Of a stretch of DNA of 64,000 nt, positions 34,667 to 60,949 are shown piece after piece. The stretch comes from Coffea arabica (taxonomy: Eukaryota; Streptophyta; Magnoliopsida; Gentianales; Rubiaceae). The stretch spans positions 47,787,001 through 47,851,000 of the forward strand of contig NC_092316.1 of the NCBI RefSeq assembly GCF_036785885.1, written 5' to 3'. The translations under genes and the position numbers were made by a program. Under the pieces are notes generated by a model that worked only from the letters and a program-made list of their open reading frames with translations, made no database searches and was not told where the DNA came from. Position 1 is the stretch's first letter. Each line of letters opens with the position of its first letter.

Positions 34667-34800
34667 GGATTAGGGGCAGGAGCGGTCATCAGGCCGACTG
34701 CTCCTGAACTGTCCTCTCACAGGCAAAAACATGAGGAGAAAAATGATCCACGTCAGGAAGGCTTAAGAAAGGGTGAAAACGACGCCGTTTGAAATAAAAA
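34667..34800 (+). repeat. Left terminal inverted repeat of the giant MULE
   Basis: Starts GGATTAGGGGCAGGAGCGGTC and contains GATCCACGTCAGGAAGG and GAAAACGACGCCGTTTGAAA. These match the complement of the right end with moderate divergence. Confidence 0.75.
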
Positions 34801-36158
34801 TTTTTTTTATTCCAAACGGAATCAGACGGAGCAAATGTCTTGAGTTCAAAATTTGAAAAACAAGTTGAAATTTTGAATGACCTGCAGAAAACAAAATTGA
34901 GGGAAGAGTCTTGGCGTGCTCTGTCTGAAGGTAGGGAGTTGACAGAAAACTCGTATCTCAGTTTTCTTTTCTCAGAAAACCTAGTCCCTTTTCTCAGTTT
35001 CCGTTCGAGAAACTTACCAAGAAACTGAGAAGAGACTTCGGCTACTGGGTCAACAAATGTTGTATCCATTTTAAACGCTTACAAGGCAGGCGGCAAGGTA
35101 GAAGCAAACAGAGGAAATTCTTGTCCTTCAACTTAATAGCAGAAGCAGCTACGCTCTCTGAGTTTGGTGAAACGTAGAGCGTATTAGCAGACCAAGGTAA
35201 CGTGACTGAACCATGTAACTAACTGTAGCCAATCATTTATAACCCAAATGCACATCTGTTAAATGAAGGATGAAATTAGATATGAAGATGATAGAAGAAT
35301 AGTAAAGTTGTACCGTATCTATGTGTTTGTGAGCATTCAGCTTTTCAGTGATGAACTATAATGGGATAGTAATTATTGGAAGACCTAGAGATATGTATTC
35401 AAGTAAACCGTCGAAAGAAATTAGGGAAAGATGAGAGAAACAAAGTCACATTTAACAAGTGAATGAATGTACATCCTGTTGTAAATTAGTTACAGGTTAT
35501 AGGCACTGTGTTACAATTGACGTGAATCATTGTGTGCCCAATAGTTGGTCCATGCCCATGACACAATCTTAGTTTGCCCCTCTCTTCTGACCATGCGGTG
35601 TGTATAAAATGGAGGTGCAGAGTTGAATGAGGTGAAGCAGAAGAAAAGGCCGACCTATGTGAATAATAAATGGGTGTACTTGGTGTTGTAAGTAAATTAC
35701 ATGATGTAATAAATATATTACAATGAGTAGAGAATGCTTGTTTGGCCCTCAAAATATAGAAATAGTAAAAAATGCGGAGTTGGCTTCGGCGGTTGTCATT
35801 GACGAATGACATAAGATCCAGTGAAACAAAGTACCCGGAACCTAAATATAATCACCCGAGTGGATGTACATACAGTTAAAATACACTTACATCATGTGAT
35901 CAACGTATTACAGTACGTATAACTTATTGTACACGGAATTGTATTTGTACATATATAATGCCGTTGTCTTAGAGTATAATAGGATTTGATATACAAGTAT
36001 CTGTACAACATTAATCATATCGATGAGAGTAATAATAGGATTTGGTACACGAGTAATGGGTGTAACATAACATATTATGAATGATAATATACTTTTATGT
36101 TGTCGTTTATGTACATACTATTCATGAACTGTTACAAATTATGGTGTTTGATGCATAA
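34801..36158. other. Left subterminal region of the giant MULE
   Basis: About 1.3 kb without a supported gene. It probably holds the promoter and leader of the transposase. TTACA-containing phrases recur here and in other non-coding parts of the element. Confidence 0.5.
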
Positions 36159-39100
36159 TTGGTAGGAGCAGAAGTAATGGATTGTAGCAAATTGGCAGAA
36201 GATGGGACCCCTGAATTAGGAATGGAGTTCAATAGTGAAGAGGATGCGTATAAGTTTTACAACAAATATACCTTTAAAATGGGTTTTAGTGTACGTAAAG
36301 ACTATCTAAATAAAGACAAAAACGGTGTGACCACGTCTAGGAGATATAATTGCTGCAAGGAAGGTGTAAAACGCAAGTACGAAGGTGATGTGATGCCAAA
36401 GAGAACTCGAGCGCCGACGAAAATGGGGTGTGGAGCTAAAATGGTTATCGTGTTGCTTAGAGGGACAATGAAGTACCGTGTACATGACCTTATCTTAGAA
36501 CATAACCATGAGTTGCACATTGCTCAATGTTCGCACATGATGCCATCACAAAGAAAAGTGAGTGAGCCTTAAGGATTCCAAGCTAAAATAGGCGTGGATG
36601 CTGGGCTTTCATTGAAACAGAGTCACGAGCTTATGGGAAAGGAGGCAAGTGGGATGGAAAATGTGGAATATACTCGAGAAGACTTGAAACGATATCTTCG
36701 TACTCGACGGGAAAGGAGTTTGAAATATGGAGAAGCAGGTAGCACATTGAATTATTTTCAAGAGCAAACACTCGAGAATCCATCATTTTTTCATGCCGTA
36801 CAGCTAGACTGTGAAGAGCAGATAACGAATATCTTTTGGGCTGATGCAGGAATGTTAATTGACTACAACTTTTTTGGAGATATAGTCACATTCGACACAA
36901 CGTACAAAACAAATAAAGAATACCGGCCACTTAGAGTATTTGTGGGTTTTAACCAACATAGGTAAATTGTGATATTCGATGCTGCCCTTATGTATGATGA
37001 GACTATAGATTTTTTCAAATGGGTGTTTGGTACATTTCTAAAAGTAATGTGCGGAAAGCATCCAAGTACCATACTAACCGATCAAGATCACGCCATGGCA
37101 GCCGCTCTTTTAGTTGTCATACCTGAAACATTTCACGGTCTATGTACGTTTCACATAAGGCGTAATTTTATGAAACATCTTGGCAATCACTACAAGGAAA
37201 ATAGTGATCTTCCATACATGTTTGGTGCCTACATATATGAGTTTGAAGAAGTGGAACAATTCAATAGGGTGTGGGAGACGATGGTGAAGAAACACAATCT
37301 TGAAAATAATGAATGGCTCTCCGGGTTGTATCGAATTCGTGATAAATAGGCAAGGTGCATGATGAAAGAAAGATGGACCGCGGGAATGCGAAGCACCCAA
37401 CTTAGCGAAAGCCTAAATGCAGCAATTAAAAATCATTTGAAACTGAATCATGACCTTGTGCAGTTCTTTAGACATTTCAATCGGGTGGTTGATAAAAAGA
37501 GACATAATGAACTGATCGCAGAATATGAAATGAGACAAAAGCTCCCCATGGTAGGGTTAAGGCAAACACCTATGCTTGTGCATGCATCAGAGACGTATTC
37601 ACCAACCGTATTTGTTGCATTTCAAAATGAATATGGCGAGTCAACAGCTATGGTTATATTGAGACAACAAGATGCAGCGATGTTTGTGGAGTTTGTGGTC
37701 ATGAGGTATGATGGAAGACCTGAAATGTGACGCCCCGAAAAAAAATGAGTGTGAGAACCCGTAAAAAACCCTAATTTTTTCCGAGGGTTTTATTTCCTTT
37801 AATAGCATGTTTTCTGCATTTCCTGGCTTAGGAAATTTTTCCTGAGGAATTTTTATGAGTAATTATAGTTTTTAGATGATTTTTCTAGCCTTGGAGAGTT
37901 TTTGGAAAATTAAGAATATATATTGGACGTGGGACCCATTAGTGCGAAAAGTTCGGAAAAATTCGGCCAATAAGGTTAAGTTTTGGATACTGTGTAAACT
38001 TTATCGCGTGTTACGAGATAAGTAGAGTGTGTGATATGATTGATGTGAGAGGAAAAGAAAAGGATTGACATGCATTAATGGAGTGCCACGTGTCACTTGG
38101 TGGTTGGTTGGACTTTATGGTTTACTATTCACATTTTTGACTTTTTTGACCAAAGGTTAAATATCTTCAAAATTCATTAAAATTTCCTCATTCTTTCTTC
38201 ACCATAGCTGGCCCTCTCAAGCTCCGAAAGGAAGAGAACTCCATCAACTTTCAAGCTTCTACTTGGTGCAAATCACCCAAAAACATTAGCTTACATCCAT
38301 TTTACTCCATACAATCTTTCCTTTTAGTGATAGTGAGTGCTTTAGTGAAGTTTTTTGGAAGAGCTAAGGTGTCCAACATCTTCCCCTCTCTTGTTTACTT
38401 GGTAAGTGAAGCTTAAACTTTCACCTACACCTATTGATGCTTAAGATATGATTAGTAGTGATTAAAGTGCTGAAATTTCTGGTTTTATCTTGGTTTGAAG
38501 TGATTTGGTGAAGTTTTGATTTTATTGATGATTTTTCTGGTTTAATTGGATTATGGTGTTGTGGTTGTTTATGATGATTGATAATGAGGGGTTATGACTC
38601 TAGTGGATGGAAATGATTGATATTTGCAACCAATTTTGGATTTGGAATAAATTTTGGAAAGTTAGGGTTCATGAAGCTACATTCTGCCTGAATTTATTGC
38701 ACCATGTTAAAGGCCGAATTGGCCTTGGCTTAAAACATGAAAGTTGTAGGTATTGATGTGTTTGAAGTGACTGTAAAATTTCAGGTCATTTGGACTAGTG
38801 TAGAGTGAGATATGTCGATTTTACTGTTGCTATTCTGGGTTGACCAGAATGCGAAAACTGCGCTTGTAATCGTTTGTTTTGACTGGAATTGGTTTGGATT
38901 TTGAAGTTGGTGTCTTCTGATTAAATGTATCTGGATGTCTTAGCTAACATATGCCTTTGGAATTTCGGCATTTGGACCTGTATAGACTGAGTTGTGTTCA
39001 TTACAGCATAGTGGGATTTGTGAACCTGTTTTAGTGGTTCTGGTTTGGTATTTTTGGCATATTTGACCTAGTTGTGCTCGAAACTGGGTCGAATGACCTT

Positions 39101-40636
39101 CTGTAATATTGAAACCCTATCTCTTAGCTTCGAAACGGTATATCTTACACCCCCATCCGACAATCGTAGCGCCTTTGGTACCATTACCGCAAAATAACGT
39201 CAAAACTATTTTTCTGGTTTTGAGCTTAACTTTCATTTCCGGACTTTTCCCTAGCTTGACTTGTGCTAGTACTACTTGGAGCTTGCTGAATGGATATTAG
39301 ATGAACTTATTTGTGTGACTTTGGGACTGGCTGAAGTAATAATGAAGCCATGATGGCTGGAAAAGTTAGCAAATTCAGGGGAAGTGCTGTCCGAACTTTG
39401 AAGGGACTTGTTTGCGTTAAGTTTGTGATCTAAGACTTGGTTTTGAGCAAGGCAATGATACATGATGGATGGTTTCTGAGCCGTGGAGGTGAGTGACCCT
39501 AAACTGTTTCCAAAGTTCTTATGAACCGTTTCTTGCACTATTTACTTGATTGCATATCATGAGTGCTTGCATGTGGCCCATGACATATTTTGGCATAAAT
39601 GAGTGCTTGGAATTCGTGTGCTGAACACCAACGTCTCCACTTCTGTGTACTGTTCATCTGGAGCAAATGCCTCCCCCACTGACTGTTTACGGTTTAATGT
39701 TTGTTTGGAGCATTGGGTGTTTCAGTACAATGATTTCGCTGGCTCACGAGAGCAATAAATGTACAGTTGATCTTGAAATCATGACATCACTGAAATGAAC
39801 GACTGTGAAACTGAATTGATTACTGATTTTAATGGTTACTCGCTGAGCTTCTAACTCACCCCAAAAATGTTTTACTTCCCCCCCCACAGGGCTCAAGGCG
39901 AAAAAAAGCTTGGAGTGCTTATTCACGTGACTGGATGGCTTATATCGTGTACAGTTTAAGTTTGGATCTATTTTATGTACGAGTTGGTCTTGTATAAATA
40001 TTTGAAATTGATATGGATGTAAGTATACGTTCCACGATTGGAATCAGTTTCCGCTGCATTTGTAATATGTAATCATTGGAGAATTTGATGTAATTTTGAG
40101 GTTTATTCTTGTAATTCATTTGAGGATTGTAGTAAGCGACTGAGTCCCGGCGAGAGTTGGGCAGGCGGCCGGCCGAACCCTCTGGTTCGCCTTAGGGGGA
40201 GGTGGGGCCGTTACATGAAAGAATAGTGGTATTCAATCGGAATGATCTAAGTGTACGTTGTAGTCGCAAAAAATACGAGAATGAAGGTATTTTATGTGGG
40301 CACGCGTTGAAGGTGTTTGATACTGTGGGCATAAAAATAATTCTTCCTGAATACATTAAGAGGCAATGGACAAAAAGAGCTCGGGCTGGAGACTGTTTTG
40401 ATCGGCGAGGACGGGAAGTTGTGGCTGATCCTAAAATAATAATTTCAACTCGTTATCGGGAGTTCGTTCCAGTCATGATTAAGGTCGCAACTCGAGCAGC
40501 AATGTCGGAGGACACTAGCAAAGTAGCAATCACTGTCATATCCAATTTGACAAAGAGAGTTGAGCTCCTCCTCTCAGAAAGCGAAGAGCAACCTTTGCAA
40601 AATAAAAAAAAATCTGAATATGGAGGAACGGGATAA
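36159..40636 (+). pseudogene. FAR1/MURA-type MULE transposase, inactivated
   Basis: One frame holds a FAR1-type DNA-binding region (GMEFNSEEDAYKFYNKYTFK and CGAKMV, ending in LEHNHELH). A MULE DDE core follows: FDTTYKTN (first Asp), LTDQDHAMAAAL (second Asp), CTFHIRRN, and the Glu in QLSESLNAAIKNH. A SWIM zinc finger lies near 40255-40310. Three stops interrupt the same frame: TAA 36570-36572 (after SEP), TAA 36963-36965 (after NQHR), TAG 37347-37349 (after RDK). Each can be explained by a single C-to-T or G-to-A change. A solo LTR (37726-40215) splits the gene, but the frame is continuous once it and one target copy are ignored. In the SWIM motif the second Cys appears as Arg (VRCSRKKYENEGILCGHAL). 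The last frame ends at 40636. Related to FHY3/FAR1 proteins, but the context says transposase. Confidence 0.93.
37726..40215 (+). repeat. Solo LTR (gypsy-type) inside the transposase gene
   Basis: Starts TGTGACGCCCCGAAAAAAA, ends GGTGGGGCCGTTACA, and is flanked by the perfect 5-bp repeat TGAAA (37721-37725 and 40216-40220). It is 2,490 bp with no polyprotein. These ends are familiar from plant Ty3/gypsy LTRs. It is the product of recombination between two LTRs of a former full insertion. Confidence 0.92.
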
Positions 40637-41158
40637 AATTGAAATTGTGAATGAAATGGGGGAGGCAATAGTCGCAAGAGGCAATAAAAAATGAGGCGCT
40701 GGGAGGAAAAGTAGAGTGATGTGAAGTTGGGTCGATAAATTTGACAGAGTAAAAAGAAAATCTAGATTATCAAGGACTACACAGACTACGGTATGGATCA
40801 AATTTTGGTACTTGGGGAACATTTATGCTAAAACTAAGTTATCGTTATACTATTAACTAAAGTTTAAGTATTATTCATTATGAATAATATTATTACCGTG
40901 TCAATACTGTAGGTCTCAGAATCGGAGCCGACATCGGTTTCATTTGAGGAATACATGTTTATGGGATGCCGTTCATCTACTGACTCTGTTTCGCTTAGTA
41001 TAAAATGGACATGACTCTTGCTTTTATTTGGATGTTTCTAACATCATAAATAGTTACATTGTGTGATAATGTTGTTACGGCCGTCATCTCTCCTGATATA
41101 CCTATTTTGTTTGTCTTATACAATGATTTGGCCCATATGAAACTCGTAGACGCATTCA
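40637..41158. other. Region after the transposase frame
   Basis: Possible short exon from 40914 (VSESEPTSVSFEEYMFMGC, after an AG at 40912-40913), open to about 41012. Otherwise nothing recognised. Confidence 0.3.
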
Positions 41159-41877
41159 ATGAGCCAGACAGTGAATGGCCCTTCAAACGCTGTTGCTCCC
41201 GATATCGATGAAAGTGAAACGGTATGCATACATTTAGTAGTTAAAATAAAGACCTTCTTGTTCGTGTAGTAGAGCTACCTTTTTTTCTTTAATTGTAATG
41301 GTGGGCACCCGAATGCTGTTAAATCATGCAATATTATGTAGTTAACATATACTCGCTTTAATAACATATTAATTTTTATTATTCGAAGGTCCACCGTTTG
41401 GCTAATCAGAGGCCTCCTGCAAGTGTCCCTACAGAATGGATGCATCCCAAATTTTCTATTTTTTCCAAGCATAACTTCGTCAGAGATGTCTTAATGGCCT
41501 GATATATCATTTTTGTTATAATGCCTAGTCCAATTTAATTTTATAAGTGAGCAATATAGGTATTGGTAATGATTTCTTGACAGTCGATTACTTATACTAT
41601 GTAATGTAGGAGGAGCGTGCGGCAATTTTAACACACTGTGATGTTGATACATATCATGTATTTGCACCATCACCCCAGGTGACAAACTTTTATCGTACAA
41701 CACATATTTATGTAATGTTGTTAATTGGAGACTTGGACATCGTATATCATTAATCGTATGTTTCATTAATAATATTTGTTGATTTGCCGTCGTTACGCAT
41801 TTTAGGGAAGATATAACGCCCAGGGATTGCAACTACGCGTTGACGTCGCCTCCCTCAAGAATGGGGTTGATGAATGA
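41159..41877 (+). CDS. Possible small multi-exon gene or transposase 3' exons
   Basis: Not a recognised family. ATG at 41159 opens MSQTVNGPSNAVAPDIDESE, ending at a GTATGC donor. A second open piece after the AG near 41389 reads VHRLANQRPPASVPTEWMHP. A third after the AG near 41610 reads EERAAILTHCDVDTYHVFAP and ends at CAG|GTGACA. A fourth after the AG near 41804 reads GRYNAQGLQLRVDVASLKNG, ending TGA at 41877. Several pieces fit in phase with AG/GT borders, but the donor of the second exon is unclear. It could be an independent accessory protein or alternative 3' exons of the transposase transcript. Evidence is splice logic only. Confidence 0.33.
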
Positions 41878-42799: not shown

Positions 42800-43432
42800 T
42801 CAGTTGTAGCCCATACAACACCTGGGAACGCCGTCATGCATTAGACAATGAGGTATGTACCTTTGAAAGTCATCGTCGCTTGATTCAGTAAAGTCAGATA
42901 GGTCCGGGTCAGATATAAGCATGGGATCTGCTAAAATGTGCTGAACATCAAATTGTTTTCCAATACCATGTCTTTTTGCGGCCTGGATCTCATGGAACCT
43001 GTGAAGCCTACGCTCCATCTGCATAACTTTTCGCTGTAGCCTATATAATACGCTTGCATCGTTGGCTTGTGGTCCTATAACAAGATCCGTTGACCTTGTT
43101 CTCGGGACGCGGAGGCCATGTAAGCGACAAAATATCTCTAATTCCATTCTTCGCTTACGAACAGGCTCCCACATGGGTCCATGGTCTATAACAAAATAGC
43201 CAGACGGTAGATGATCGTTGACGGTATTTTTAAAAATATGGCCACCTAGTCCCAGAGAGTTGTTGGTGTTAAATGGAGTGTTCCTGAACTCGCGTTTGGT
43301 ACCATATAAAATCCTCCCGTCTGGTGTTTCGTACTTACTTATGGCATTTGTTGGACCCAACGATACTTTCCATCTTTTTTGCTGAACATTTGATGGTGAG
43401 CTTGTATGAGATCCTTCGTTTGTGGATTGCAT
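42800..43432 (-). CDS. Unrecognised 210-codon ORF in the giant MULE
   Basis: Long for this AT-rich DNA and of coding-like composition: hydrophilic, with few low-complexity runs. It starts MQSTNEGSHTSSPSNVQQKR and continues with GYFVIDHGPMWEPVRKRRME and LYRLQRKVMQMERRLHRFHE (basic, helix-prone). An acidic C-terminal part (DPDLSDFTESSDDDFQRY) precedes a Cys-containing end (VPRCCMGYN). I recognise no domain. A further open stretch upstream on the same strand, MVAMPSSIHPGVQSRGERHE (43653 down to about 43550), could be a first exon. It lies on the same strand as the GRF and Ulp1-like genes and opposite to the transposase. The product could be a DNA- or RNA-binding accessory factor, but that is only suggested by charge pattern. 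Confidence 0.55.
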   Translation of the reverse strand: MQSTNEGSHTSSPSNVQQKRWKVSLGPTNAISKYETPDGRILYGTKREFRNTPFNTNNSLGLGGHIFKNTVNDHLPSGYFVIDHGPMWEPVRKRRMELEIFCRLHGLRVPRTRSTDLVIGPQANDASVLYRLQRKVMQMERRLHRFHEIQAAKRHGIGKQFDVQHILADPMLISDPDLSDFTESSDDDFQRYIPHCLMHDGVPRCCMGYN

Positions 43433-44169
43433 GACTATGCTAATACCTACTGCTTTTTGGTTGGATGAAAGGAAAGATCCACTGATAAAGAATTAGGTGG
43501 GAGAAAAAAAGAGGTAGAAATTTTTAACGGAGCACCTGTTTCAGACCATGCATAGTAAATGGTTTCTTCTGGCAACTTGACCAACTACTTGCTGTGTCAT
43601 TTCATGCCGTTCTCCACGGGATTGTACTCCTGGGTGAATAGATGAAGGCATGGCAACCATCTATTAACGAGAGAATAGATTCAACGTTTGGTTAAATGTA
43701 TAGTGTATGGATGAAATAATGGTTCAATTTGATTGGGTCATGACCTGTACTCCAACAACAATTGGGTCAGGTGAATACCCAGTTATACATCAGTCACCTT
43801 ACTTTTCAAGTGTAACAAGAAGTTACAACCAGCATATGTACGTTACAAGAAGTTAATAAGCTGTTACCGATTATTGATGTGCTTGTACAGCCACCTTGTC
43901 ATTTGCCTGTATGTTAAAACTTAGACAATTTGTTTACAATTGTATTAACGATGAGTATTACAGATAGTATTACAGGCACTTCAATATGTATTACTCATTC
44001 AGTACAGAAATGAAGTTACAATTGACAGCTCGACTTGGTTCCACATGACCACATAATAAGTAACAGTTTCGCAGAAGAACATGATACTTCGTTGGGACAA
44101 GTAATTTGAAAGTAGGGTAACTAATATTTAAAATGCAATAAATTTTGATTACTCCATGTACATTTTGAG

Positions 44170-44550
44170 TTACAACCAGTTATATATATGTTACAATTCA
44201 TTACAACTAATGAATTTGCAATCGGCAGTTTTTTGTCTTATGTAGTTAAAACTACTGATATTACAACTAGAAATTCCCTGATATTACAACTAGTAATACT
44301 ACAACTAGTTAATATCTGATGAACATTTCCTCTTCTCTCGTTTGTGCAATTACGCTTGGCACAAACAATAAGTCCTCCCCCCTAACACATAAAATTTCTT
44401 AGACACTTTAGTAAGTGTCTATTGAAAACATAGAGATGGTCGATTCGAACCCCAAAACAATTGATGTAGCGAGGCCTTCTCGAACATCTCATTAAATTAG
44501 CGAGATCTTCTCGAACATCATGCAACCTACTAGCTGCTATTTGGCACCCA
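44170..44550. repeat. First copy of an internal duplicated block
   Basis: About 380 bp that recurs at 45012-45395 in the same orientation. Shared phrases include ATGTTACAATTCATTA, AAATTTCTTAGACACTTTA, GTGTCTATTGA/ATGTCTATTGA, CGAACCCCAAAACA and AGGCCTTCTCGAACATCT. Confidence 0.75.
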
Positions 44551-45011
44551 AGAACTTGATTTCTGTGTGAACCCTCTATTGATGACACTGCAATTGAGGT
44601 TAGACGAGAGTTGAAGAATACTAATAATAAATTTCATGCACGGGTTCATTGCCACCCTTCAGTAGAATGAAATGGGAAGTGTGAAGTTATTGAAAATGGA
44701 AAATCTTTGTGTAGCAATGAAAGGTGGACGGAAAAGTTTTTGTTGTTGAGGGATATACTACTGCAACCGCGCCCTTTTATAGTCCGCAGGACCCTCACAA
44801 TGTGGTAAAATATCACTGGACAACGTATTCCAGGCCAAACAATTTTGTCGTGGCAGTGGAAGTTGTAGAGTTCGATGCATGCCATTGAATTGTGTCAAAT
44901 CTGTTCAGACAATAAAACAAATTATCCAGCTTTTGTCATGAAATGTCCTGTACACCAATATTAAGGGTCACGTGAATAAAGAGTTACACATCAGTGACCT
45001 GTACGTTTTAC

Positions 45012-45395
45012 TATGTACAGATTGCGTTGCAACCAGTTAGGTGTATGTTACAATTCATTATAACTAACGAATTTGCAATCAGCAGCTTTTCGTCTGCTCT
45101 ATTTAAAACTGAATAATATTCCAACTAAATATTCCCCGATGTTACAACTAGTGATAATACAACTAGTTAATATTCGATGAACCTTTTCTCTTCTCTTGTT
45201 TGTGCTATTGCCCTTGGCAGAAACGATAATTTCTCCCACTGACACATTAAATTTCTTAGACACTTTATTAAATGTCTATTGAGAATAGTTACGATGATCG
45301 TTTCGAACCCCAAAACATTGCGTAGCAAGGCCTTCTCGAACATCTGATTAAAATAGTGAGATCTTCCCGAACGCATATGAGGCCAACTAGTACAT
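45012..45395. repeat. Second copy of the internal duplicated block
   Basis: Direct repeat of 44170-44550 with many single-base differences and small indels. Similar minus-strand peptides occur in both (NRHLLKCLRNFMC and NRHLIKCLRNLMC). This could mean an old exon was copied, or merely that the DNA was. Confidence 0.75.
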
Positions 45396-46235
45396 CACGA
45401 GAGAAGAGACTGTAGACCCACATGCAGTGCCTGAACCATGTCGGATAAGTTTCGTGCTGTACAACGCATCAGATTTGTAGTACCGACAGTGAATATACGT
45501 GTTACGTGCTGTTGCTAATCGTTTACAGATTTCAACACATGTTTTCGCAGCTTTTATCATCTAAGGACTTGTACTCCAATGTTGGGGGTCACGTCTATGC
45601 AGAGTTACACATTATTGACGATAAGTTTTACTAATACCTTACACAGTAACGCTCTAAATACACTGTTTGCACTTTACCTTCTACTATTTGTTGGGTGGCC
45701 CAACATTTTCATTGTTGTAAATAAGAACGCACAAAGCTGTATCTAAGAATGCATGATTTGTGACTAGCTTAATAAACAAACAATCTCATGTATTAGGTTC
45801 GTCAATATCTAGTTGGTGTCTTAAGGTAACCATACAATCTCGTTTAGCTCAAAAAACACAATAGTTGAAACGCTTGCTGATGTCATTAACACAGAACAAT
45901 TGCGTAGTGCAAGTGTTTTCAGCTGTAAGGTTTTGTACACTTACTAGTTCCCAATAACTTGGGTGGGAAAAAAAATTAGTAGAACATGCTGTCAACATTA
46001 CACTAAAAAAGTCACAGATAGTGCGAATGAGCTTACATCTAGGAGCTCTCTAATACACAAGTCCGGTTCATATATCTTGCAGTCTAGCTGAGGTTTTCAT
46101 TTGCTTGATGTCATTCTGGAGGCGTTGCACAGGATAGGAGAATGTGGTTGATTGATGGAGCACTGTTGCGGGACTGTCGAACGAGCTTTCTCTAGTTATT
46201 TCTTGTCGATTAGGTGAGGTGGGGTAATAGTTAGT

Positions 46236-46439
46236 CTAAACAAACTCATCATCCCTCCGTATTGGATGAGCCCAGGCAAAAAAAGGACATGCTTTTGCAT
46301 CACAGACGAAGTATAACAAACCTTTCGTTGGTTTCTGTGACTCCACGATCTTCAGGTTAGCCCTTTTTCCACAGTTACAATACCGATATTGGTACCTTAA
46401 TTCGCTAGATCCGCCACCAACATTGCTAGATGAAGACAT
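46236..46439 (-). CDS. GRF-type zinc-finger small protein
   Basis: A 67-residue frame starting MSSSSNVGGGSSELRYQY. The core is CNCGKRANLKIVESQKPTKG, then LLYFVCDAKACPFFAWAHP, the zf-GRF pattern CxCG...C....CxFFxW. GRF fingers bind single-stranded nucleic acid in larger proteins and are frequent in small ORFs carried by plant transposons. All zinc-binding residues look present and there is no stop, so it may be functional. It lies between the 210-codon ORF and the Ulp1-like gene, all on the minus strand. A downstream exon is possible: the frame simply ends after RRDDEFV. Confidence 0.78.
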   Translation of the reverse strand: MSSSSNVGGGSSELRYQYRYCNCGKRANLKIVESQKPTKGLLYFVCDAKACPFFAWAHPIRRDDEFV

Positions 46440-46773: not shown

Positions 46774-47410
46774 AGGGATAATTTCAGATACCTCCCCTGA
46801 GGTTTCTGATAGTCTCACTTCCCTCCCCCGTGGTTTCAAAAATGCCACAAAATTCCCCTAAAACTAAATAAGTAGTCTCAAAATAGGCCCGATTCAAAAA
46901 TACAAACAATAAAAAATGGGTAGTTGGAGAGAGAAACAACTATATAACTGTGAATGCCCTGATTATCTTGCATTAGTGAGTTAATCTCATATGAAACAGG
47001 CAAGTAACTTGTATTTCTCCTTGCAAGTTGCAGTAGGTATGTAATTTTATCTATATGACTAATACTGATTTATCTATAAACACCTTACTCGGGGTGATCT
47101 ATGAGGTACAATAAGTTTATAAACATATACATTATGTTAGATGCTAGTTACTTGCCTGTTTTTATATTGGTTAAAGGTTCTAATTTATCGTTAATTAGAT
47201 TAATTGTGTTTATAACTAACTTCACCAAATTTGTGCTGATAATCACGAAATATTAGCTAACTTGTGAGGGTATTTAAGTCTTTTTGGCCATGATAATGTA
47301 AGAAATGGGACCTAAAATTCTGACATGGGAGGTTTATGATATTTTTGAAATTACAAGGGAGGAGAGTGAGACTGTCAGAAACCTCAGCTCTAAATATCTG
47401 AAATTATCCC
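46774..47410. mobile_element. Mutator-type MITE inside the giant MULE
   Basis: Ends AGGGATAATTTCAGATA and the complementary TATCTGAAATTATCCC. It is flanked by T plus eight A on both sides (46765-46773 and 47411-47419), a 9-bp duplication though of low complexity. It contains CCTCCCCTGAGGTTTCTGA and its complement-like partner. Non-coding. Confidence 0.75.
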
Positions 47411-47588
47411 TAAAAAAAAGGGGTGATTCTTCTGCTTTAGTATACGTGCAACTAATTGTTAAGGTAACCATTACAGTTTGAGGTTTGGTCCAATGTCAAT
47501 AAAAAGAGAGTATGAAATGGAACTAACAGTAAAGTGGGGTTAGACGAGAAGTTTTGCAACAGGGGTCAGTATATTAAACACTGGAAAC

Positions 47589-47605
47589 GGGGCAGGAGCG
47601 GTCAT
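47589..47605 (+). repeat. Internal copy of the MULE terminal motif
   Basis: GGGGCAGGAGCGGTCAT is identical to 34673-34689 of the left terminal repeat and in the same orientation. It is followed by similar CTCCTGA(A/G)CTGT sequence. It may mark the left end of an older related element nested here, or a duplicated end. Confidence 0.6.
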
Positions 47606-48573
47606 TCTGATGACCTCTCCTGAGCTGTTAATGGCCATAATTTGGTATCAACAAATTGTGCGATCCAGATCACAAGTTGTTCATCGATTTTCGCACCGTA
47701 TGTGGGACCCACAAAATTTTGTACTAAAGTTACACGTGGTGCAAACAAAGTTACGCCGTGTGCAACCAAAGTTACGCGCTATTGAACATGGCCAAAACTA
47801 GTATCTCTAATATTTGATGCAACTTATTACCAGTCTGACTAATATAAAGTGAGATCAGGTGGAAGTTATAAACTTGCGCAATATTCAAGATGTCTTATAC
47901 AAAACCACTATGTGTAACTTTTTATGTGCTCTATGTAACACACTTTCAACTACGAAAGTAGATATATACCAATCCATGTCAATTAATAATCCTTGCGTAC
48001 AAAGCGTGAAGGCGATAAGAACGAGCATCTCTATAAGTGTCATAACGTGTTTCTAATAAGTCAAGAATTTTGCCATTGCTCTTCATTGTCCATAATCTTC
48101 GTAGTGCCGGTATTACAAGTAGTTAGCAAAAAGTCACAGACAGATTTAAAACAATTAATGTTCGGCTAATGTTATTACTGACAATATTCTAGTGATAACT
48201 CAAAACCTAACTTAAATTACAAGTAGCTGCAAATATTGGTGCTAATGTGTCCAGAAAAACAAAACCAGTAACTGTTTCAAAAAATATCCTTTGCTATTAT
48301 GCATAGCAGAAACAAGAATTTACATCCCTGTTGAAGATGCTCTTGCAACCATTTACTATTTACTCCCAAGCGTGGCGGCAATAGTGTCTACAAACTTTGT
48401 ATTATGCTCCAAACTACAAAGCCGCGCGGTGTACACCATTCGATACTTCGTAATATTTTCCTGCCACAATTTCACCTCTGATAATCAGCACCACGATTAA
48501 GGTATTTATTAACCGTTTTATTGCCACAAGTACGTAAAAAGATAGTTACAAAACGTGACTACACCTTTGTAAT
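47606..48573. other. Non-coding stretch in the giant MULE
   Basis: Contains clustered short phrases such as AAAGTTACGC near 47730-47785. No gene is supported here. The end of the minus-strand Ulp1-like gene lies just to the right. Confidence 0.4.
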
Positions 48574-51500
48574 TCACATAGCCAATCTTCCACTCCAATG
48601 TTCAAGAAAGGTCATTGTGAAAATTCCACTATCGAACCTGATCAGATCAACATGAATCTTCTCAGGAATAAGGATAATATAGTAAAGTGATGGTAGTACA
48701 CCATTGCAGTGATAAGGTATCGGGGAAAAGGTCATGGAAAATCCGATATTATACCAACTATCGGGTGGCTGATGAGGGACATCAGCAACTTCGAGTTTGA
48801 AACTTGCAAAGTCAATTTTCATCCCAAATTTAGCTGCCATTATCAGTCCGAGGGCACGTTGCTGCACGAAACACGGTCAAGTAACTCAACATATGATAAA
48901 AATCAATGAACTATTCGCATAAACAATTATACCAAGCGCTTTAGAACTGTAATATCTTTGCTTTTTGCTTGTTGTGGGTCAGGGTCTAGTAGATGGACTA
49001 TGTGATGTGTGACATGCAAGGAGTACACGAACCAGTAACTATCTACGCAGACAGGGACAAGAATCTGATGCAGAGCAAAAAACTTTTTCAATGGTAAACT
49101 ACCATAATAGAGCAGTTTACTAATAACTTGCCAATAAATACAAATTCAGCAATAGTTACGATAAGATTATGTCCATACCAACTGACACTTGGAAGGATCA
49201 GCCGTATTATCCGGGCCGCGGATCTTGAACAACTTCATAAGCTTAGCAGTTAGGATGTCATCCGACTGTGCATCGAATTTTCAAAGATTCAAGATGCCAT
49301 CCTGTTAATAATCAGTACAAGGGAATATAAGTGTTAAGGGTGATTTTCACAAATAGTATAAGATTACAACATGCATTTGTGCGAAATTTTCATAATAGTT
49401 TAATGAATAACTTGCCATTAGCCAACAATAATTTTAATGCTTACAACTGCTATAGGATCGACAATATAGCGTTTGACTCTACTAGTTGTGCTAGTCGCCC
49501 CGCCCCAGTTGATATGCCGGGCAAACATGTCCATGACCTGCTTATTCACAACACAGTGATAGAATTGATTTAGTTACTGCCATTTCAAAAACCTATCATT
49601 TTACCTTACCAAACCAACACAATGTATTATTTGTCGTATGTGTCAAATATGCCTAACTCGAGTCGAGACATGCATGCCATCACAAAGAGTTCTGAGGTCA
49701 TCTCGTGTGAGAGAAAGTTGAAACATTTGAATGAGAGTCTCCCTGCAATTACGCGAGACAAAAGGAGGCGCTATTTAAATTTGCCAGTTCTTATCAACCA
49801 TGAGTTACAAAAATGTAAATGCTTTATCAAGTTGTTACACTCAGTTTCAGCCAACAAATAGTAGCACTAATAAACCATGCATCCCCTAGGCTGGAGAAAT
49901 TTTATTACATTCAGCTACTTCTTCATTATAATCAAGTAGTAAAAGATACGTAATTTGGGAGAAATTTTACAACCGTCTTCTAAGAAGAAGTGACGCTACT
50001 GCAAACCAACTTTTAATTCTAATTGGGAGAGCATAAAAATTCAAAGGCAACATGCAAGAAATGACTGACTATTTATAAAAGGGATAATTTCAGATACCCT
50101 CATTTGGCTTTTGACAGTCTCACTCTCCTCCCTTGCGATTTCAAAAAATTTCAGAAAAAGTCTTACACACCCTCCTTTTCATAACTTCAGGTCCTATTTC
50201 TTACATCCTCGTGGCTAAAACGACTCAAACCCACTCACGACTTTGCTATTTTTTCGTGATTATGGGTTCAAGAATTCGTCTAACATTCTCAAAAGTAACA
50301 TTTGAGTATTCTATATCTAATCTCCATTCCACATGTATAAATAATCAAGTAACTAACACCTAACAGGAAGTACATTTTGCTAGTTTTAACTTGGTGACTA
50401 ACAAATAATTAAATCGAAGGAGAGGGACATGCAGTTAACCTTAAAAGATGCATGAATTCATTAGGAATGGACTGGAGAGATGCACTTAACAAATAGTAGC
50501 AACTATAAATTCTTAAGTGGCTGTAGCATAACCTTATAATCGTATTATAAACACATTGGAACCTTACTTGGGATTCTGATCTACCTCTCATGCGAATGCA
50601 GCGATCCTTTTATCGTACGTGCTGACTGTTACGTGTGAAGACAGAAGGTACTCGGCTGACCGTAGCATGCTGCTTTTCTTTGTTGCCCGAGTTGGTCTCC
50701 CTTCATTCTCATCTTCAACAGCTACTGAAGATATCAATACATCAGAAAATATAATTCAATAATTAGTTCACACTGACAGAATAACGCTTAGGTATGCGTG
50801 TTATACAAAAAATTAATAGGTCAGCAGCAGGGCAGTAATGTTTAACCGATTAACCGATCAGCCAAGTATTCTTCAATTGATATGCAAAACTAAAATGCAT
50901 TGAACATAATTTAGCCTCAACAGTATCAGGGTTTACAGTCGATAGAACATAATACAATAAATTCGTGGAAATTCGTATATCAAATTCTTGACAGCCACCA
51001 AGTTTACTAACCTTTCCTTTTGTGACTATAAGACCGCAACCTTCTCGGTGTGTTTGGCCCATCCAAAGGATGCTCAATTCGTATGGGACCTGTTGAGCAA
51101 TCATGCTGCATATGTTGTGTGGATTCATCTGTAATGCGGTCAAAAATGCTTGTTATATGGTCAGTATGTACTTCAACGCCTCGTGAATCAGGTTGGCCAA
51201 TTGGTGGGGTATCATTTGCCCTGTCTCCACTAAATGAAATGTCCTTCCCATCACCTATGATGCCATCATTTTCTGCCTCCTTTCCATCACTAGTTCTCCC
51301 ACTTTGCTCTTTTTCAACCGTCTTCTGCCCTATTGATTGTCGATTTGTTGGTTCAGTCTCATCTATTGATCTGATTGACGTCCCAATGTCATCGGCAGTA
51401 CCGCCGACATCTTGTTCTTTTTCACTATCACCGTCATCGAGGTCTTTGGAGTCCTTTCCATCCTCAGTCGATTCATATTCTGAATGATCTTCACTTTCCA

Positions 51501-53525
51501 TATCAAGATATATTTGCTCTGAATCAGACAGCCTCTGTTTCCGCTTTTCCTTTGAAACGACCTCTGTTGCTGCTGTTTTGGCCCTAGGATGAGAACACAA
51601 TATTTCTGCAATCTTTAATATCCTTCTTTGACAACTTACTGTCATACTGTACACTTCTGAAAGCTCAGCCTGCTTATACATTAACAAACCATAATGAATA
51701 GCTCGTTTCGACTTAATCCAGAACAGATAATAGGAAATTATGCATTGATGTGTATTACTTCCTCGTGGATCTCACTAAATCTGCCTTTTCACTTTCAATT
51801 GGTGAAATATTTTTCATGACTAAGTTATGAATATCCAGTTATACATGAAAATGCCTTAAGCTGTATTTGCCACTCGAATCGAATAAGGTTATGATAGTTA
51901 CCTTTATATTTTACATGAATAATATGCGAGAATTTTTTTCACTGCTCTTTTCTGTCATAGAATATGGAAAATACGACACGATCTGTTCTATGCAAGAAAT
52001 GTACCTAGATTAGATCACAACAATAATGTTATTTTGTGACCGGCATTTGAAAAATGTTGCCACCTTTTACAAAGCTTAACAAACGAATGGGTGTACTTAT
52101 TTGTCCCAAACTCCACTTACAACTAACTTTCCTATTTTTGTATGTTATGCATAGCAAACGCAAAATGATTGTATGCGGTCATGGAAGATTTATCATGATT
52201 GTATTGGACAAGATAACTTTCCCCAGTTACTTAGGTTTGGCTGCTTACAAAAACATCAGTATAAATGCATAACATTTGCTCTTAAGCAACAACATTACAG
52301 AATAAACTTTCTTCTAAGAAAATTAGGCAGCTTACAGCAATGTCATGATGACCGCTATCCATCATTATTCCAACTAGTTCAGGGGGTAGCTCATTTATCT
52401 GTGCACCTGATTCAGTCTCTTCCTCTTCATGCGCCCCAATCTACGAAAATAAAGTCAAACCATCATTTCATAAGTACATGGTATGTGTGTCTTATACATA
52501 TGAACTAGTAAGTTACAATCCTTATCCAAGCAAAAATAAATTATCTCTCTTACTAGTTTTCCTTTTCCATAACCTCCGAGATTATCGATCTCCAATGCAT
52601 CCCGCTGTGAAATTAAAGCATCTGTCCATGCCTTTGCTCTTGGTGTAATTCGAGCCACTCTGTGCTTTAGTATTATCACTCGATCGATGTAATGCACTTG
52701 CAATCCAATTGGCAACTAACTCATCATTTATATCATTTGCAAACAATATATGTATCACGAATTTCAAAATTTTATTTATATCTAATGTCCCGTTTGTGCG
52801 ACAATCCTCTTTCCCGTCCTTCATACTCACTTATCATATCATAATATGTACGTTGCATAAACAACCTTCATGTGCCTAATTAAAATTTCAAAATCGTTGC
52901 ATCCCCTACTAGTTAAATGACTTACTAACTTTCAATAACGTGTAACTAAACTTACCAATAGAACAAAGATGCAGCCCCCAACATATTGGTGCTGCTTTCC
53001 GGTTTTCTTCTGCACTTCTAATATCCTATTGCATAGTACATTTCTAACGTACTCTGTCCAATTTAATGAGGCCACCTCAGTAACCACCTTCGTGCAACCC
53101 CATAGCCGGATTTTATGCTCAGCCCGTGTAGTTGGAGCCAATAGACATCCACAAGCAAATGCAACAAATAGTCGCTTGAACTCATCCCTACTGCTCATGG
53201 ATACTAACTCCTCTGGCAGCTCTTTCCATTTGTATGTTCGGCGACTTGGTCCAGAATCTCCACCCTCACTGCAATCAGCATCTTCAACTGGTAAGGGGCC
53301 ATCATTTGGGATTCCAAGGATGAAACCGATGTCTTTTGCTGTTAGGGGTAGCACACCATCTCCATGTAGCTGAAAGCTGCTTAGTGTAGGATTAAAATTG
53401 TCGACCAGCCAGGTTCCTATGCCGTTCGGAATGGAGCGACACTGTATTTCCAGCAGCCCTCCAAACCCCATATCTCTGATTTGCTGTTTTTTTGTTTCAT
53501 CAATGTTCGATGCTAACCAAACCAT
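48574..53525 (-). pseudogene. Ulp1 (C48) protease-like MULE accessory gene, multi-exon, probably damaged
   Basis: On the minus strand the first large exon (53525-52956) reads NPTLSSFQLHGDGVLPLTAK, DIGFILGIPNDGPLP and KRLFVAFACGCLLAPTTR, ending GGCIFVLL at a GTAAGT donor. This N-terminal arrangement is typical of Ulp1-like genes carried by plant MULEs. Another exon (about 52702-52547) gives VHYIDRVIILKHRVARITPR. An acidic, Ser-rich exon (51687-51007) follows. Near 48760 the C48 end appears: VADVPHQPPDSW, then, after a likely small intron, FDSGIFTMTFLEHWSG. The family's catalytic Cys (DCG) appears as Ser (DSG). A MITE fragment (50081 on) lies in it. In SUMO proteases this domain cleaves isopeptide bonds; here the role in the transposon is unknown and the enzyme may be inactive. 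Exon borders between 51000 and 48900 are not resolved. Confidence 0.65.
50081..50370. mobile_element. Truncated Mutator-type MITE
   Basis: Starts GGGATAATTTCAGATACC, the same end as the MITE at 46774-47410, and continues with its G/A-rich subterminal sequence (GACAGTCTCACTCTCCTCCC). No matching right end was found. Confidence 0.6.
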
Positions 53526-53850
53526 CTGATTTGGTGAACAACGAATGGTGTACTTCGGATTCTATAATCAAGTTCAAGCGAAAAACCTAGTTAGTCATAC
53601 ACAAATTATCACATACCAACCTAAACTTCATCCATGCTTTGTGCTTACCTTATACTGCTTTATTGGCAGTATAGTCTTTCCAAGCCGCGTCATTTCTCTC
53701 TTGTACTCCTCTTTTTCTTTCCAATAGTTCTCTTTCGATTCTGTACTTCTTCCTCGCTCAATTTATCATATGCTGCTTTGACCATTTTATTATACTGCAT
53801 TCGATGCATATAATCGTTAATCATTCCTAATGTCATCATCATTTTCTAAT

Positions 53851-54776
53851 GGGTTAATAGTATAATTCCTCCCCTGACTTTTGTTCTAATCACATCTAAC
53901 ACCTCCCAAGTTAATGTTATCACACCTAGCATCCCTGGCAGTGGGATGTGACAGATTATCCTAATCAAAAGATAATAAATTATTCAAAAATCACCAACAT
54001 CTACCCCATGCCACAAATAACCTTAACTCATTCTGAGACAAAAAGAAATCTGGATAAATAATGTTATACCACAACTAAAGTTGAATGGCCATAATTTAAA
54101 AATAATCTATGCAGTATACGGAGACCAATACTCCACTACAAAACTAAGAACAAAACTGTATACCAAAACAGATAAAAAAAATCAGAAAATTCTTTTAAGA
54201 ATTTTTTGATAACTATTCTGAATTATGTTATATTTTTATACAAATTGTAACTCTAATTGAACTATCCGTAAAACCTATCATAAGAGATACGATTATTACA
54301 TATTGGACCCATATGTACACTAATGTGTTACACAAAATTACAAAATGTTCAAAACGTGTTACCCTGTTCAAGGATGATTGATCTAACAACCTTATTTACC
54401 TCGCATCTCTCCAAACGATACATATCGTCATACTCCATGGTCTACAAAATAACAAATTCGGTTACAGTTTCATACAAATCCTATTACAACCCTAATGCTA
54501 TCCTATTATTTATTATATGATCATTTGCGTATACTAAAAATCAAGATTTATACCTGTTTTGCTACTACGAAGTATACTCATTTTGGGTTATGGATAAAAG
54601 TGGAACAAAAATAAAGTCTCTCTCCTATACTTCATTTTTTACTACTATTTTCAAATAGAGGGGCTGACAATGACATCAAAGTTGTCATTCCAGTGGTGCT
54701 AAGTGTGATTTTGATAACATGGAGGGTGCTAGGTGTGATTCTAAGGAACCAAGAGGGAGGTTTCTGATATTAACCC
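53851..54776. mobile_element. Mutator-type non-autonomous element
   Basis: Ends GGGTTAATAGTATAATTCC and the complementary GGGTTAATATCAGAAACC, with CCTCCC-type subterminal motifs. It is flanked by TTTTCTAAT (53842-53850) and TTTTCTGAT (54777-54785), a 9-bp duplication with one mismatch. Interior AT-rich, no ORF of note. Confidence 0.75.
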
Positions 54777-55109
54777 TTTTCTGATTGTGTTGATTACTTT
54801 TACCGCGCCCTAACTTTCCAAATTAATGTTTTATTTAGTTCTTATGCGTACCTCTATTATCTTAATGCCTTTCGCTGGAACGGTGCTTTGATACTCCTTC
54901 CTACACACATTCAATATTAACCAATTAACTGTGCATTCTACTCATCATTATTATTTTTAATAAACACCAACATTACCTAAACTTCATCCACGGATTCAGC
55001 GGTGGAACTGGTTGTCTGACTTCACTTGTCCCCGCTGCCTCTATTCCTTCATTTTCATTCATTTTCATCTAAACTCTTGTTTCGTCTTTTGCTTCTTATC
55101 CGTGCCATC

Positions 55110-56560
55110 CTGTTTATACATAGCAATGAATACAATAAACATATACCAACGAAGTCTCAAATACGACATACCAATTACGCACTAACTTTTCTACTCTATT
55201 TTTTCTCTATACTTATTAATCCACACCATGTAACACTTATCCAACACAACCGTGAACATGCACAAGAACTAATACAATTAACATACATTAATGCAGTTTC
55301 AAATGGAAGCAAATTTCAATTTCAATCTAACATTTCTCTTCACTTTCTGGCCTGTGCCTGTTAATCCACACCATGTAACAATTATCCAACACCATGTAAC
55401 ACTTTTCCAACACTTTGTTGATGCAAAAGAACTAATACAATTAACATACATCAATGCAGTTTCAAATGGAAGCAAATTTCAATTTCAATCTAACATTTTT
55501 CTTCTCTTTCTGGCCTGTGCTTGTTAATCCACACCATGTAACAGTTATCCAACACCATGTAACACTTTTCCAACACTTTGTTCATACACAAGAACTAATA
55601 CAATAAACATACATCAATGTAGTCCCACATACGACATTCCAATTTCAATCTAACCTTTCTCTTTTCTTTCTGTTCTATTCCTGTTAATCCACACCATGTA
55701 ACAATTATCCAACAACATGTAAGACTTATCCAATATTGTGTTCATACATGTGAACTAATAGAATAGACATACACTAATGAACATCCAGAAACGACATACC
55801 AATTTGAGACTAAAATTTCTACTATGTTTCTTCTCTGTGCCTATTAATCTACAACAAGTAACACTTATGGAACACTATGTTCATGCACACAAACTAATAC
55901 AATAAACATATACCAATGATGATGCAAATACGACATATAAATTTCAAACCATCAATTCTATTCTATTTGTGTCCTATTTCTGTTAATCCACAACATGTAA
56001 CAGTTATCCAATATTGTGTTTATGCATAGCAACGAATACAATAAACATACACCAATGAAGTCTCAAATATGACATACCAATTACACACTAACATTTCTAT
56101 TCTGTTTCTTCTCTGTACTTGTTAATCCACACCATGTAACATTTATTCAACATTTTGTTCATGCACAACAACTATTACAATAAATATACATCAATGCAGT
56201 CCCAAATACCATATTCCATTTTCAATCTAACATTTATGTTCTCTTTCTGTCCTGTACCTGTTAATCCAAACCATGTAATAGTTAAAGGACAACATGTATG
56301 ACTTATCTAACATTGTATTCATGCACTTGAACTAATATAATAGACATATAGTAATGACGATCAAAATACGACATACCAATTTTACACTAATATTTGTACT
56401 CTATTTCTTCTTTGTGCCTGTTAGTTCGCAAAAAGTAAGACTTAGCCAACATTGTGTTCATACACACCAACTGCTACACTAGACATACAGATCTGAAATA
56501 TCAAATACAACATACCCATCCCAGACTAACATTTCTTATGTTAATACTTTACACTTAATA
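55110..56560. repeat. Subterminal tandem array of about nine 140-160-bp units
   Basis: The phrase TTAATCCACACCATGTAAC or a close variant recurs at about 55216, 55360, 55523, 55682, 55841, 55980, 56119, 56260 and 56418. Each unit also carries AACTAATACAATAAACATA, a CGACATACCAATT-type block and a pyrimidine-rich end. Units differ by substitutions and small indels. The array lies about 1 kb inside the right end of the giant MULE. Confidence 0.85.
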
Positions 56561-57419
56561 CACCATATCAATGTTTCTCCATGTCACTTTTTTCTCACAT
56601 ACCATAACATAATTTTTAGCCAACATGCTGTATGACCCATCCTTCACTGAATTATCTTGTGACTATTTGATAACGCAGTGTATCACACACTCAACACATT
56701 GTACATCTACTCAGCATATAGTAATTAGAATGTACACCAATTTTTTACACCTACGAACTCCCTCCCAAATCCATGCACACATTTTCTCAAGCGGTTGTGC
56801 CGCAACATTTTCCCCTCCTTTCCCACTATCCTGTTTCGACAATCAAAGGCTAACGTGTAATACTCCTATCATGCTGCACTTATCAATTACTATACACAAA
56901 TTATGCATGTGTGACATCCCTCTGTACAATCATCATAGTGTACACCAACAACATCCAGAAAGTAAGGTTTTTCCACTTTTTGGTCAAATTACAGGCATTA
57001 CTATATCATTCTAGGCTTTCTCATGTTTTACCTGACTGATTTGTGGTCGTTCACTACTTTCGAATCTCACGATCTTCCACTTTCAAACTTGGGTTCAACT
57101 TTCTTCTTCTTTTATTAAACCCCAATCACCAAAAACTTTTACTTCCACCACCACTTCTTCCTTCTCTTTGCTCTTATTTTCCTTCAACGATGCCGCTGTT
57201 CCACAACTTTTGGCAATGTCGAACTTTGTTGCCCGTCTTCTAGTTTCCTCTTTTAGTTCCTCCACTCCAATCTTGCCCTATCTTTTTACATTTGTTAATT
57301 TCAGCAACCGCTTCCTTTGGGAGGGAGTGTAAGTGGGGCTCTTCTTGGGAACGTTTCATTTTAGGCGGGACTTTGCTTGCCATTGGTGCTGACGGTCCGT
57401 TACGGTCAACACCGTCATC
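56561..57419. other. Right subterminal region of the giant MULE
   Basis: No supported gene. It may be the upstream region and leader of the minus-strand genes. Confidence 0.4.
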
Positions 57420-57543
57420 TATTTTTTTCCCTTCATTTATATTGAAACAACGTCGTTTTGGAAGTCTGCTGAAGGCTGCTGACGTGGTTCATTTCTCGCC
57501 TTTCCTTTCTGCTTGTGAGGAGACCGCTTGGGAACGGTCATCC
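57420..57543 (-). repeat. Right terminal inverted repeat of the giant MULE
   Basis: Read on the minus strand it starts GGATGACCGTTCCCAAGCGG and contains GAACCACGTCAGCAGCC and AAAACGACGTTGTTTCAA, collinear with the left repeat. Confidence 0.75.
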
Positions 57544-57552
57544 GTCAAAAAG

Positions 57553-60831: not shown

Positions 60832-60949
60832 GTTTTGGGATTTCTTTTCTATGGCGGAGGGCCGGCCGGAAAAGACTGAGCTGGGAAATGTTGGGGGGGG
60901 GAGCCTAGAGTTATAAAGGGAGAGACGAGCTTGTCAGCCCAGCATGCAG

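Follow-up and report, generated by a model that had tools for sequence, protein, structure and literature searches.

The stretch of the Coffea arabica genome analysed here (the window) comprises 64,000 nucleotides at C7:47787001-47851000 and contains, at 34667-57543, a single Mutator-like element (MULE) of 22,877 bp with diverged inverted ends and an exact 9-bp target duplication. The element encodes a FAR1/MURA-type transposase on the forward strand and, on the reverse strand, a 210-codon open reading frame (ORF210), a GRF zinc-ribbon protein and an Ulp1-like protein. An earlier model interpretation made without database searches (the sequence-only reading) had named these four genes, and both their identities and their strands were upheld by domain searches and exon mapping. 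It is established that the locus is a large FAR1-type MULE with several genes, among them a conserved Ulp1-like gene that lacks the catalytic residues. Within its family, the copy in the window is a decayed one: the transposase, GRF and Ulp1-like frames all carry stops, and ORF210 is intact.

The 9-bp direct repeat previously reported at both borders is GTCAAAAAG, which was found flush with both ends of the element. By itself, this match is little proof because the same 9-mer recurs in the window at 26547 (+) and 61061 (-); an exact match at two given places has a chance probability of 5e-6, which rises to 0.005 if a slack of ±30/±5 bp is allowed. The ends, already suspected to be related, are identical as inverted repeats in 77 of 107 aligned columns. 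The self-comparison proposed for the terminal repeats was run with 300-bp tiles across the window on both strands, and the two ends paired: the right end matched the left end best (score 77, against 42 for the next unrelated tile), and the left end in turn matched the right end best (77), followed by an internal partial copy at 47589 (51) and then by a score of 46. With the ~9-bp target duplication, MULE-type transposase and long inverted ends, the element is a member of the Mutator-like group.

The transposase contains FAR1 (E 3.4e-19) and MULE (PF10551; E 1.2e-22) domains according to Pfam, and its best relatives come from Coffea, among them P0003 of C. eugenioides (93% identity over 513 residues). 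The ZSWIM part scores 19.4 bits in P0003, slightly below the SWIM cut-off of 19.6, and no SWIM profile match was detected in the window's own transposase exon. By this predicted domain content (FAR1, MULE core and SWIM), the element is assigned to the FAR1/Jittery type. The window gene has at least five in-frame stops and is interrupted by a later insertion that has TG...CA ends, is flanked on either side by TGAAA and was judged by eye to be similar to a solo long terminal repeat. A 2.5-kb transposase intron was rejected as an interpretation of this segment, given that it is missing in all seven copies aligned across the site; the copy c18 (see below) is also uninterrupted, according to tblastn.

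The exons of the Ulp1-like gene, which has in-frame stops in the window, were mapped using P0123, an annotated C. arabica protein of 877 residues from a cluster of 14. The Peptidase_C48 profile did not match the unspliced window frames but matched the hand-joined exons (E 8.9e-6; 26.1 bits vs the cut-off of 20.7), and P0123 itself matches at 21.7 bits. Thus, the element contains a predicted Peptidase_C48-like gene, as do ULP1-carrying MULEs of the KI-MULE/CUMULE kind. The positions of His, Asp, Gln and Cys were placed with the pattern HW...D...Q...DCG, which we take to be the C48 catalytic signature. At the His and Cys positions, the window, c7c, c3b and P0123 sequences read DSYW and FDSG, c8 reads DRY* and FDNG, and c15 reads GKHW and YDSG. 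By this placement, the catalytic Cys is replaced in all six Ulp1-like sequences that cover the sites and the His in five, so that none of the six has the His-Asp-Cys set of an active C48 protease. The c15 sequence suggests that the Cys was lost before the His. The earlier label 'SUMO-protease-like' therefore needs qualifying: the match to the C48 profile stands, but the protein is very probably non-catalytic. Two proteins of 725-728 residues, P0124 and P0125, share the N-terminal region with P0123, lack a C48 match and show weak HMG-box matches at the start (18.1 and 17.6 bits; cut-off, 25.4); these possibly represent a related or domesticated gene.

No recognised domain was found in ORF210 by the Pfam search, and the possibility that this frame holds the GRF domain was rejected for lack of such a match. 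Among 96 candidates, ORF210 has two relatives, at 90% and 61% identity. The splice joining it to a likely upstream exon is inferred, and the peptide of that exon contains a stop in c8 and c15. The GRF frame of the window is broken after 67 codons; in c8 and c7c, it continues past this break to a hydrophobic C-terminal tail, with other stops present there. Scans of viral contigs with ORF210 and the Ulp1 N-terminal exon yielded nothing useful. The features of the element are listed in Table 1, followed by neighbouring features recognised by eye.

Table 1. Features of the coffee element and its surroundings (window coordinates)
Feature	Position	Strand	Remarks
Left target-site duplication GTCAAAAAG	34658..34666	.	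flush with left end
Left end	34667..34798	+	34696-34798 aligns to right end
FAR1-MULE-SWIM (Jittery-type) transposase gene	36177..41874	+	domain matches; seven matching pieces: 36177-37715, 40217-40609, 40560-40793, 40913-41224 (with intron), 41389-41496, 41601-41687, 41806-41874
Nested later insertion in transposase gene	37726..40212	.	2,487 bp
ORF210, intact 210-codon gene or last exon	42803..43432	-	many loci genome-wide
Likely upstream exon of ORF210 gene	43544..43660	-	similar peptide in c7c, c8, c15
Internal duplication in motif-rich spacer	44156..45872	.	two copies spaced by ~857 bp and 83-90% identical; approximate outer border
GRF zinc-ribbon gene	46071..46439	-	domain 46239-46439, E 1.2e-8
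Small nested element with inverted ends	46778..47413	.	borders by eye
Ulp1-like gene	48359..54438	-	exons mapped with P0123: C48-like exons at 49747-48565, acidic part at 51010-51669 and N-terminal region at 52935-53561
Minisatellite upstream of Ulp1-like gene	55111..56560	.	units ~139-163 bp
Right end	57436..57543	-	aligned stretch 57436-57539
Right target-site duplication GTCAAAAAG	57544..57552	.	flush with right end
Leucine-rich repeat receptor kinase gene fragments	10794-13551; 24181-24669	+; -	by eye
Response-regulator/GARP-like exon	19022-19522	+	by eye
Long interspersed nuclear element, L1-like non-LTR retrotransposon remnants	28797-32943	-	frames resembling endonuclease, reverse transcriptase and RNase H, recognised by eye in the translations
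Start of papain-like cysteine protease gene	60346-60933	-	by eye

A search of the 1.198-Gb, 131-contig assembly with the left end yielded at least 57 matching segments (best 40 of 261 candidates scored). Both ends were read in eight elements: the window copy, c7c, c3b, c15, c18, c8, c22s and C4:66503047-66526718 (the last for its ends only); c21, analysed without its right end, is not among these. Perfect target duplications are present in five of the eight, namely, the window copy, c7c (9 bp, CTACTTGTT), c3b (18.15 kb; exact 9 bp, TCATCTTGA), c15 (exact 9 bp, ATGAAGCAC) and c18 (10 bp, GCCAACTTAT), those of c15 and c18 having been read by eye. The terminal inverted repeats are 70-84% identical over 107-134 aligned columns in five copies (with nine bases trimmed at the right side of c15 and a few in c8) and 100% identical over 140 columns in c22s; the right end of the window copy is short of ~25 bp of outer repeat that other copies read possess. 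c7c is collinear with the window element from end to end (pieces of 92-96% identity and one 530-bp piece of 86%), and c8 is collinear with it as well. Both contain all four genes in the same order, with the GRF gene of c7c split by an insertion. In c15, the transposase and ORF210 are accompanied by an Ulp1-like gene that has diverged; c3b carries the transposase and the Ulp1-like gene, and c18 part of the transposase only.

The Ulp1-like N-terminal exon is represented at no fewer than 42 loci (best 52 of 1383 candidates scored), including the window, c7c and c3b; no Ulp1-like match was found in L030, L032 and L033. For ORF210, manual merging of 140 rows gave 109 loci, a count that includes short fragments; many of the loci lack a stop. 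ORF210 occurs within 25 kb of the Ulp1-like exon at 35 of 42 loci (at least 42 being listed), at distances of 2.9 to 23.4 kb, and all 35 pairs share the strand and the expected side (chance, 0.0045 per locus). The search for other copies that had been suggested earlier thus recovered the same ends and gene order in c7c and c8, and one geometry for ORF210 and the Ulp1-like gene. The outcomes that would have spoken against a single element, ends belonging to two elements or a block that never moves whole, are at odds with the existence of complete copies with different target duplications. The block as proposed does move whole, as in c7c with its own duplication, but the GRF gene and ORF210 are missing from some mobile copies. 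The transposase (+) and the Ulp1-derived gene form the core of the unit, the latter lying in its right part and pointing the other way; ORF210 is very often present, and GRF in some copies. We are nearly certain that the element is one mobile unit.

Near-identical copies elsewhere indicate recent multiplication by transposition or duplication; among such young copies, target duplications were sought, and single ends only were obtained for C6, C22 and C8, and none for C4:20. On C20 (near 0.57, 9.6-9.9 and 17.2 Mb), C13, C17 and C11, ORF210 and the Ulp1-like gene lie at a constant spacing of 9.76-9.77 kb, by recent amplification or segmental duplication. c7b (C7:48515900-48541000) was rejected as an independent copy: with 24 of 25 left-flank bases matching the window and ~99% identity, it arose by segmental duplication of the insertion seen in the window, lies ~0.7 Mb from it and has itself received another insertion of ~13 kb. 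c22s (C22:11254254-11265647) is the pair that was read among six similar end pairs, the other five being on C9, C19, C22 and C17 (two), in which left-type ends face each other ~11.4 kb apart; in c22s, the outer 140 bp are identical, ~2 kb are inverted and no target duplication was found. At C15:35221623-35221730, c15 adjoins the end of another element, and its target duplication ATGAAGCAC separates the two ends, as though one element had landed in the duplication of the other.

The C4:66503047-66526718 copy spans 23,672 bp end to end, and its Ulp1-like acidic exon is 100% identical to P0123, so the natural size of the full form may be ~20-24 kb; the 22.9 kb of the window copy include the later 2.5-kb insertion and the small nested element. 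Shorter forms of 18.2, 16.0, 11.4 and 6.1 kb exist beside the full form. Between the window and c15, the number of synonymous substitutions per site (dS) is 0.16 for the transposase and 0.15 for ORF210 vs 1.4 for the Ulp1-like gene; left pieces of c15 are 87-92% identical to the window, those beyond 52 kb 69-79%, and one piece at 46.4-46.7 kb 86%. Similarly uneven identities to the window were obtained for c18 (left pieces 88-89%, right end 74%), c3b (right half 94-96%, left end 86%) and the C4 copy (last 1.2 kb 98%, left end 83%). In several copies, the history of the left half thus differs from that of the right half, which is a new finding.

Between c15 and c3b, the Ulp1-like gene shows 0.22 nonsynonymous substitutions per site (dN) and a dS of 1.46, a ratio of 0.15, with 119, 94 and 261 differences at codon positions 1, 2 and 3 over 540 codons. 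In the C48 part alone, the corresponding differences are 43, 38 and 84 over 156 codons, and the c22s-c3b comparison gives a ratio of 0.18 over 80 codons. The ratios for ORF210 are 0.35-0.72 (10 pairs without c7b) and those for the transposase 0.20-0.79, leaving out the window-c7b pair, which gave 1.31. The simplest reading of these substitution patterns, taken with the replaced catalytic residues, is that the Ulp1-like protein was retained for a job other than cutting.

AGTTAC occurs 27 times in 14.8 kb of de-duplicated noncoding element DNA vs 8 times in 41 kb outside (p 2e-16), and three times in 6.0 kb of element exons, that is, without enrichment. GTTACA occurs 32 times in the noncoding element DNA vs 15 times in the rest of the window, and further hexamers are enriched as well. 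Merged motif sites number 60 in 14.2 kb, compared with 25±5 under an order-2 Markov model (maximum 44 of 300 runs) and 37±6 under an order-3 model (maximum 52), with densities of 2.9-7.4/kb in 11 of 14 noncoding blocks; the nested 2.5-kb insertion holds no AGTTAC-type site. In eight overlapping 12-kb slices outside the element, used as a control, the best hexamer reached p values of 3e-5 to 2e-7 in seven and 6e-18 (poly-A) in one. The same hexamers are high in other copies. The motifs are thus clustered in noncoding DNA as in VANDALs, with reservations on motif choice and flanks, and the enrichment is a lead, not proof, because the motifs were chosen on the same data.

The best overall explanation, to which we assign a probability of about 0.5, is a long FAR1/Jittery-type MULE of C. 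arabica with a non-catalytic Ulp1-derived anti-silencing or transposition cofactor. The FAR1/SWIM transposase would bind the ends and move the element, generating target duplications of 9-10 bp. The Ulp1-derived protein, no longer a protease, would keep its fold as a binding surface for SUMO, a SUMO-like protein or a sumoylated silencing factor. A DNA-binding part, for which the weak HMG-box-like N-terminus of the relatives is a candidate, would bring it to the AGTTAC/GTTACA-type motifs and the minisatellite, where it would counter silencing or aid transposition within its own family, much like VANC in VANDALs; the GRF protein with its hydrophobic tail and ORF210 would be accessories. A role as a DNA-bound, non-catalytic cofactor of either kind is most likely for the Ulp1-derived protein and would be consistent with a conserved pseudo-protease and dispersed motifs; anti-silencing as its main role is a tentative assignment, less probable than not.

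Several observations weigh against this explanation. The motif set was picked after viewing the window, so that the window counts are descriptive, and the homologous left halves of the copies are not independent samples. The flanks of other copies hold 0.97-1.58 sites/kb, which reduces the enrichment (4.2/kb) from ~8-fold to ~3-4-fold; the right end (1.0/kb) and the small transposase introns (1.5/kb) are motif-poor, and AGTTAC leads the ~2000 hexamers of the diverged c15 right half at just p 8e-6, with 2.55 sites/kb. The catalytic positions were assigned by C48 motif pattern; PDB sequence searches gave no solved Ulp1 to align, and two AlphaFold models were useless (mean predicted local distance difference test scores of 35.7 and 31.4). 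Closer, decayed copies have higher dN/dS ratios (Ulp1 parts of the window, c7c and c8, 0.28-0.61), those of GRF between copies are 0.40-0.88, and all ratios were computed with ungapped codon pairing, with some intron codons at exon borders included and without confidence intervals. No matching target duplication was found in c8, c22s or C4:66503047-66526718. The 35 ORF210 pairings include one, on C21, with an 18-residue fragment, and near-identical loci among the 42 Ulp1-like ones may have arisen by segmental duplication. The 11.4-kb c22s has the transposase and Ulp1 remnants and no match to ORF210 or GRF; accordingly, the accessories appear dispensable for some movers, unless supplied in trans.

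Among the alternatives, a function of the Ulp1-derived protein and the accessories as transposition cofactors at the ends or in integration, and not in silencing, fares best, and we regard it as possible if somewhat unlikely. MURB is thought to be such a cofactor for maize MuDR. In the copies read with both genes (c7c, c8, c15 and c3b), the arrangement relative to the transposase is the same; this and purifying selection would fit the scenario, whereas motifs spread over spacers and introns of the Ulp1-like gene fit poorly with a factor acting at the ends only. A more ambitious version of the anti-silencing idea, a second, independently evolved, sequence-specific system, is speculative and in our estimate rather unlikely. 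In this version, a dead Ulp1 would act as a reader that recognises silencing factors modified by SUMO (or by NEDD8 or a ubiquitin-like protein) as well as the AGTTAC/GTTACA-type motifs in noncoding element DNA, with ORF210 and a membrane-tailed GRF zinc-ribbon protein as helpers; the right half with reader and motifs would be exchanged between lineages. The possibility that the extra genes are passengers, host gene pieces captured by the MULE (transduplication) and carried without function, is improbable. Gene capture is common in MULEs, some mobile copies lack ORF210 and GRF, and ULP transduplication by MULEs is described, in the available excerpts, as frequent, or else ULP as frequently lost (PMC2528002); however, the Ulp1-like dN/dS of ~0.15 between lineages with a dS of ~1.4, the mostly third-position differences, the many stop-free ORF210 loci among the 109 (fragments included) and the constant geometry in 35 of 35 pairs all argue against passengers. 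An active Ulp1-like protease with a Ser nucleophile or shifted residues, in keeping with the Asp and Gln of the C48 pattern and the combination of His and Ser in c15, is highly unlikely, given the Tyr in place of His in five of six sequences and the Asn at the nucleophile position of c8. Two unrelated elements with ends and 9-mer matching by chance, an idea that the recurrence of the 9-mer and the unpaired outermost 25 bp of the left end might invite, are rejected with hardly any residual doubt on the collinear complete copies c7c and c3b, with their own target duplications and a full right end.

The coffee family bears on the question of why MULEs frequently carry Ulp1-like genes. With the domain conserved after the loss of the catalytic residues, binding is separable from cleavage, which makes the question directly testable. 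If the preferred explanation of a non-catalytic Ulp1-derived cofactor is true in its anti-silencing form, element-encoded anti-silencing would extend beyond the VANC family, and to a crop genome in which copies are numerous.

The kind of element is already known: Ulp1-carrying MULEs, including Jittery-like ones, occur in grapevine and, as cited in the same source, in melon (PMC2528002). According to the available portions of that account, grapevine MULEs reach 17.7 kb; one that is ULP-marked measures 16.2 kb, and Jittery-like members measure 11.9 and 14.4 kb, so that the unusual length remarked on in the sequence-only reading is borne out in part. Like the coffee element, the grapevine elements combine a transposase with an ULP1-like gene, which lies in either orientation in MULEs with and without terminal inverted repeats (TIRs), both MuDR-like and Jittery-like; in contrast, the accessible text mentions no gene similar to GRF or ORF210 and does not discuss loss of catalytic residues (PMC2528002). 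The Arabidopsis KAONASHI/KIU MULEs, as excerpted, likewise have an Ulp1-like gene that runs against the transposase, as one of three coding genes, but are non-TIR elements with a mudrA-type and not a FAR1-type transposase (PMC13317346, PMC6117577). At least 97 MULEs are described there to have intact C48 domains (PMC6117577), unlike the coffee family with its replaced catalytic Cys, and the precise function of MULE Ulp1-like genes is given as unknown (PMC13317346). No report of GRF or a pseudo-catalytic Ulp1 in MULEs was found among the papers listed by the literature searches, with subscription papers outside their scope. CitMule, a Jittery-like element of citrus, resembles the coffee element in its FAR1, MULE and SWIM domains, 9-bp target duplication and degenerate ends (65 bp, 78%), but is ~6.9 kb long, with no accessory genes described in the excerpt (PMC4334395). 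VANDAL/Hiun elements are likewise multi-gene MULEs with degenerate ends, short noncoding motifs and tandem repeats; their anti-silencing protein VANC contains DUF1985/DUF287, and VANC21 binds YAGTATTAY and VANC6 AGTTGTCC/AGTTGTAC-type motifs, according to the parts available (PMC5735166, PMC10398659). Pfam detected neither VANC domain in the window's N-terminal exon, and P0123 matches C48 only. New relative to these systems are two further co-travelling genes, for a GRF zinc-finger protein with a hydrophobic tail and for a 210-codon family without a recognised domain; the predicted replacement of the catalytic Cys and His in the Ulp1-like domain, yet with a between-lineage dN/dS of ~0.15; and the enrichment of short AGTTAC/GTTACA-type motifs in noncoding, not coding, element DNA, which by analogy may recall the VANC targets of Arabidopsis VANDALs.

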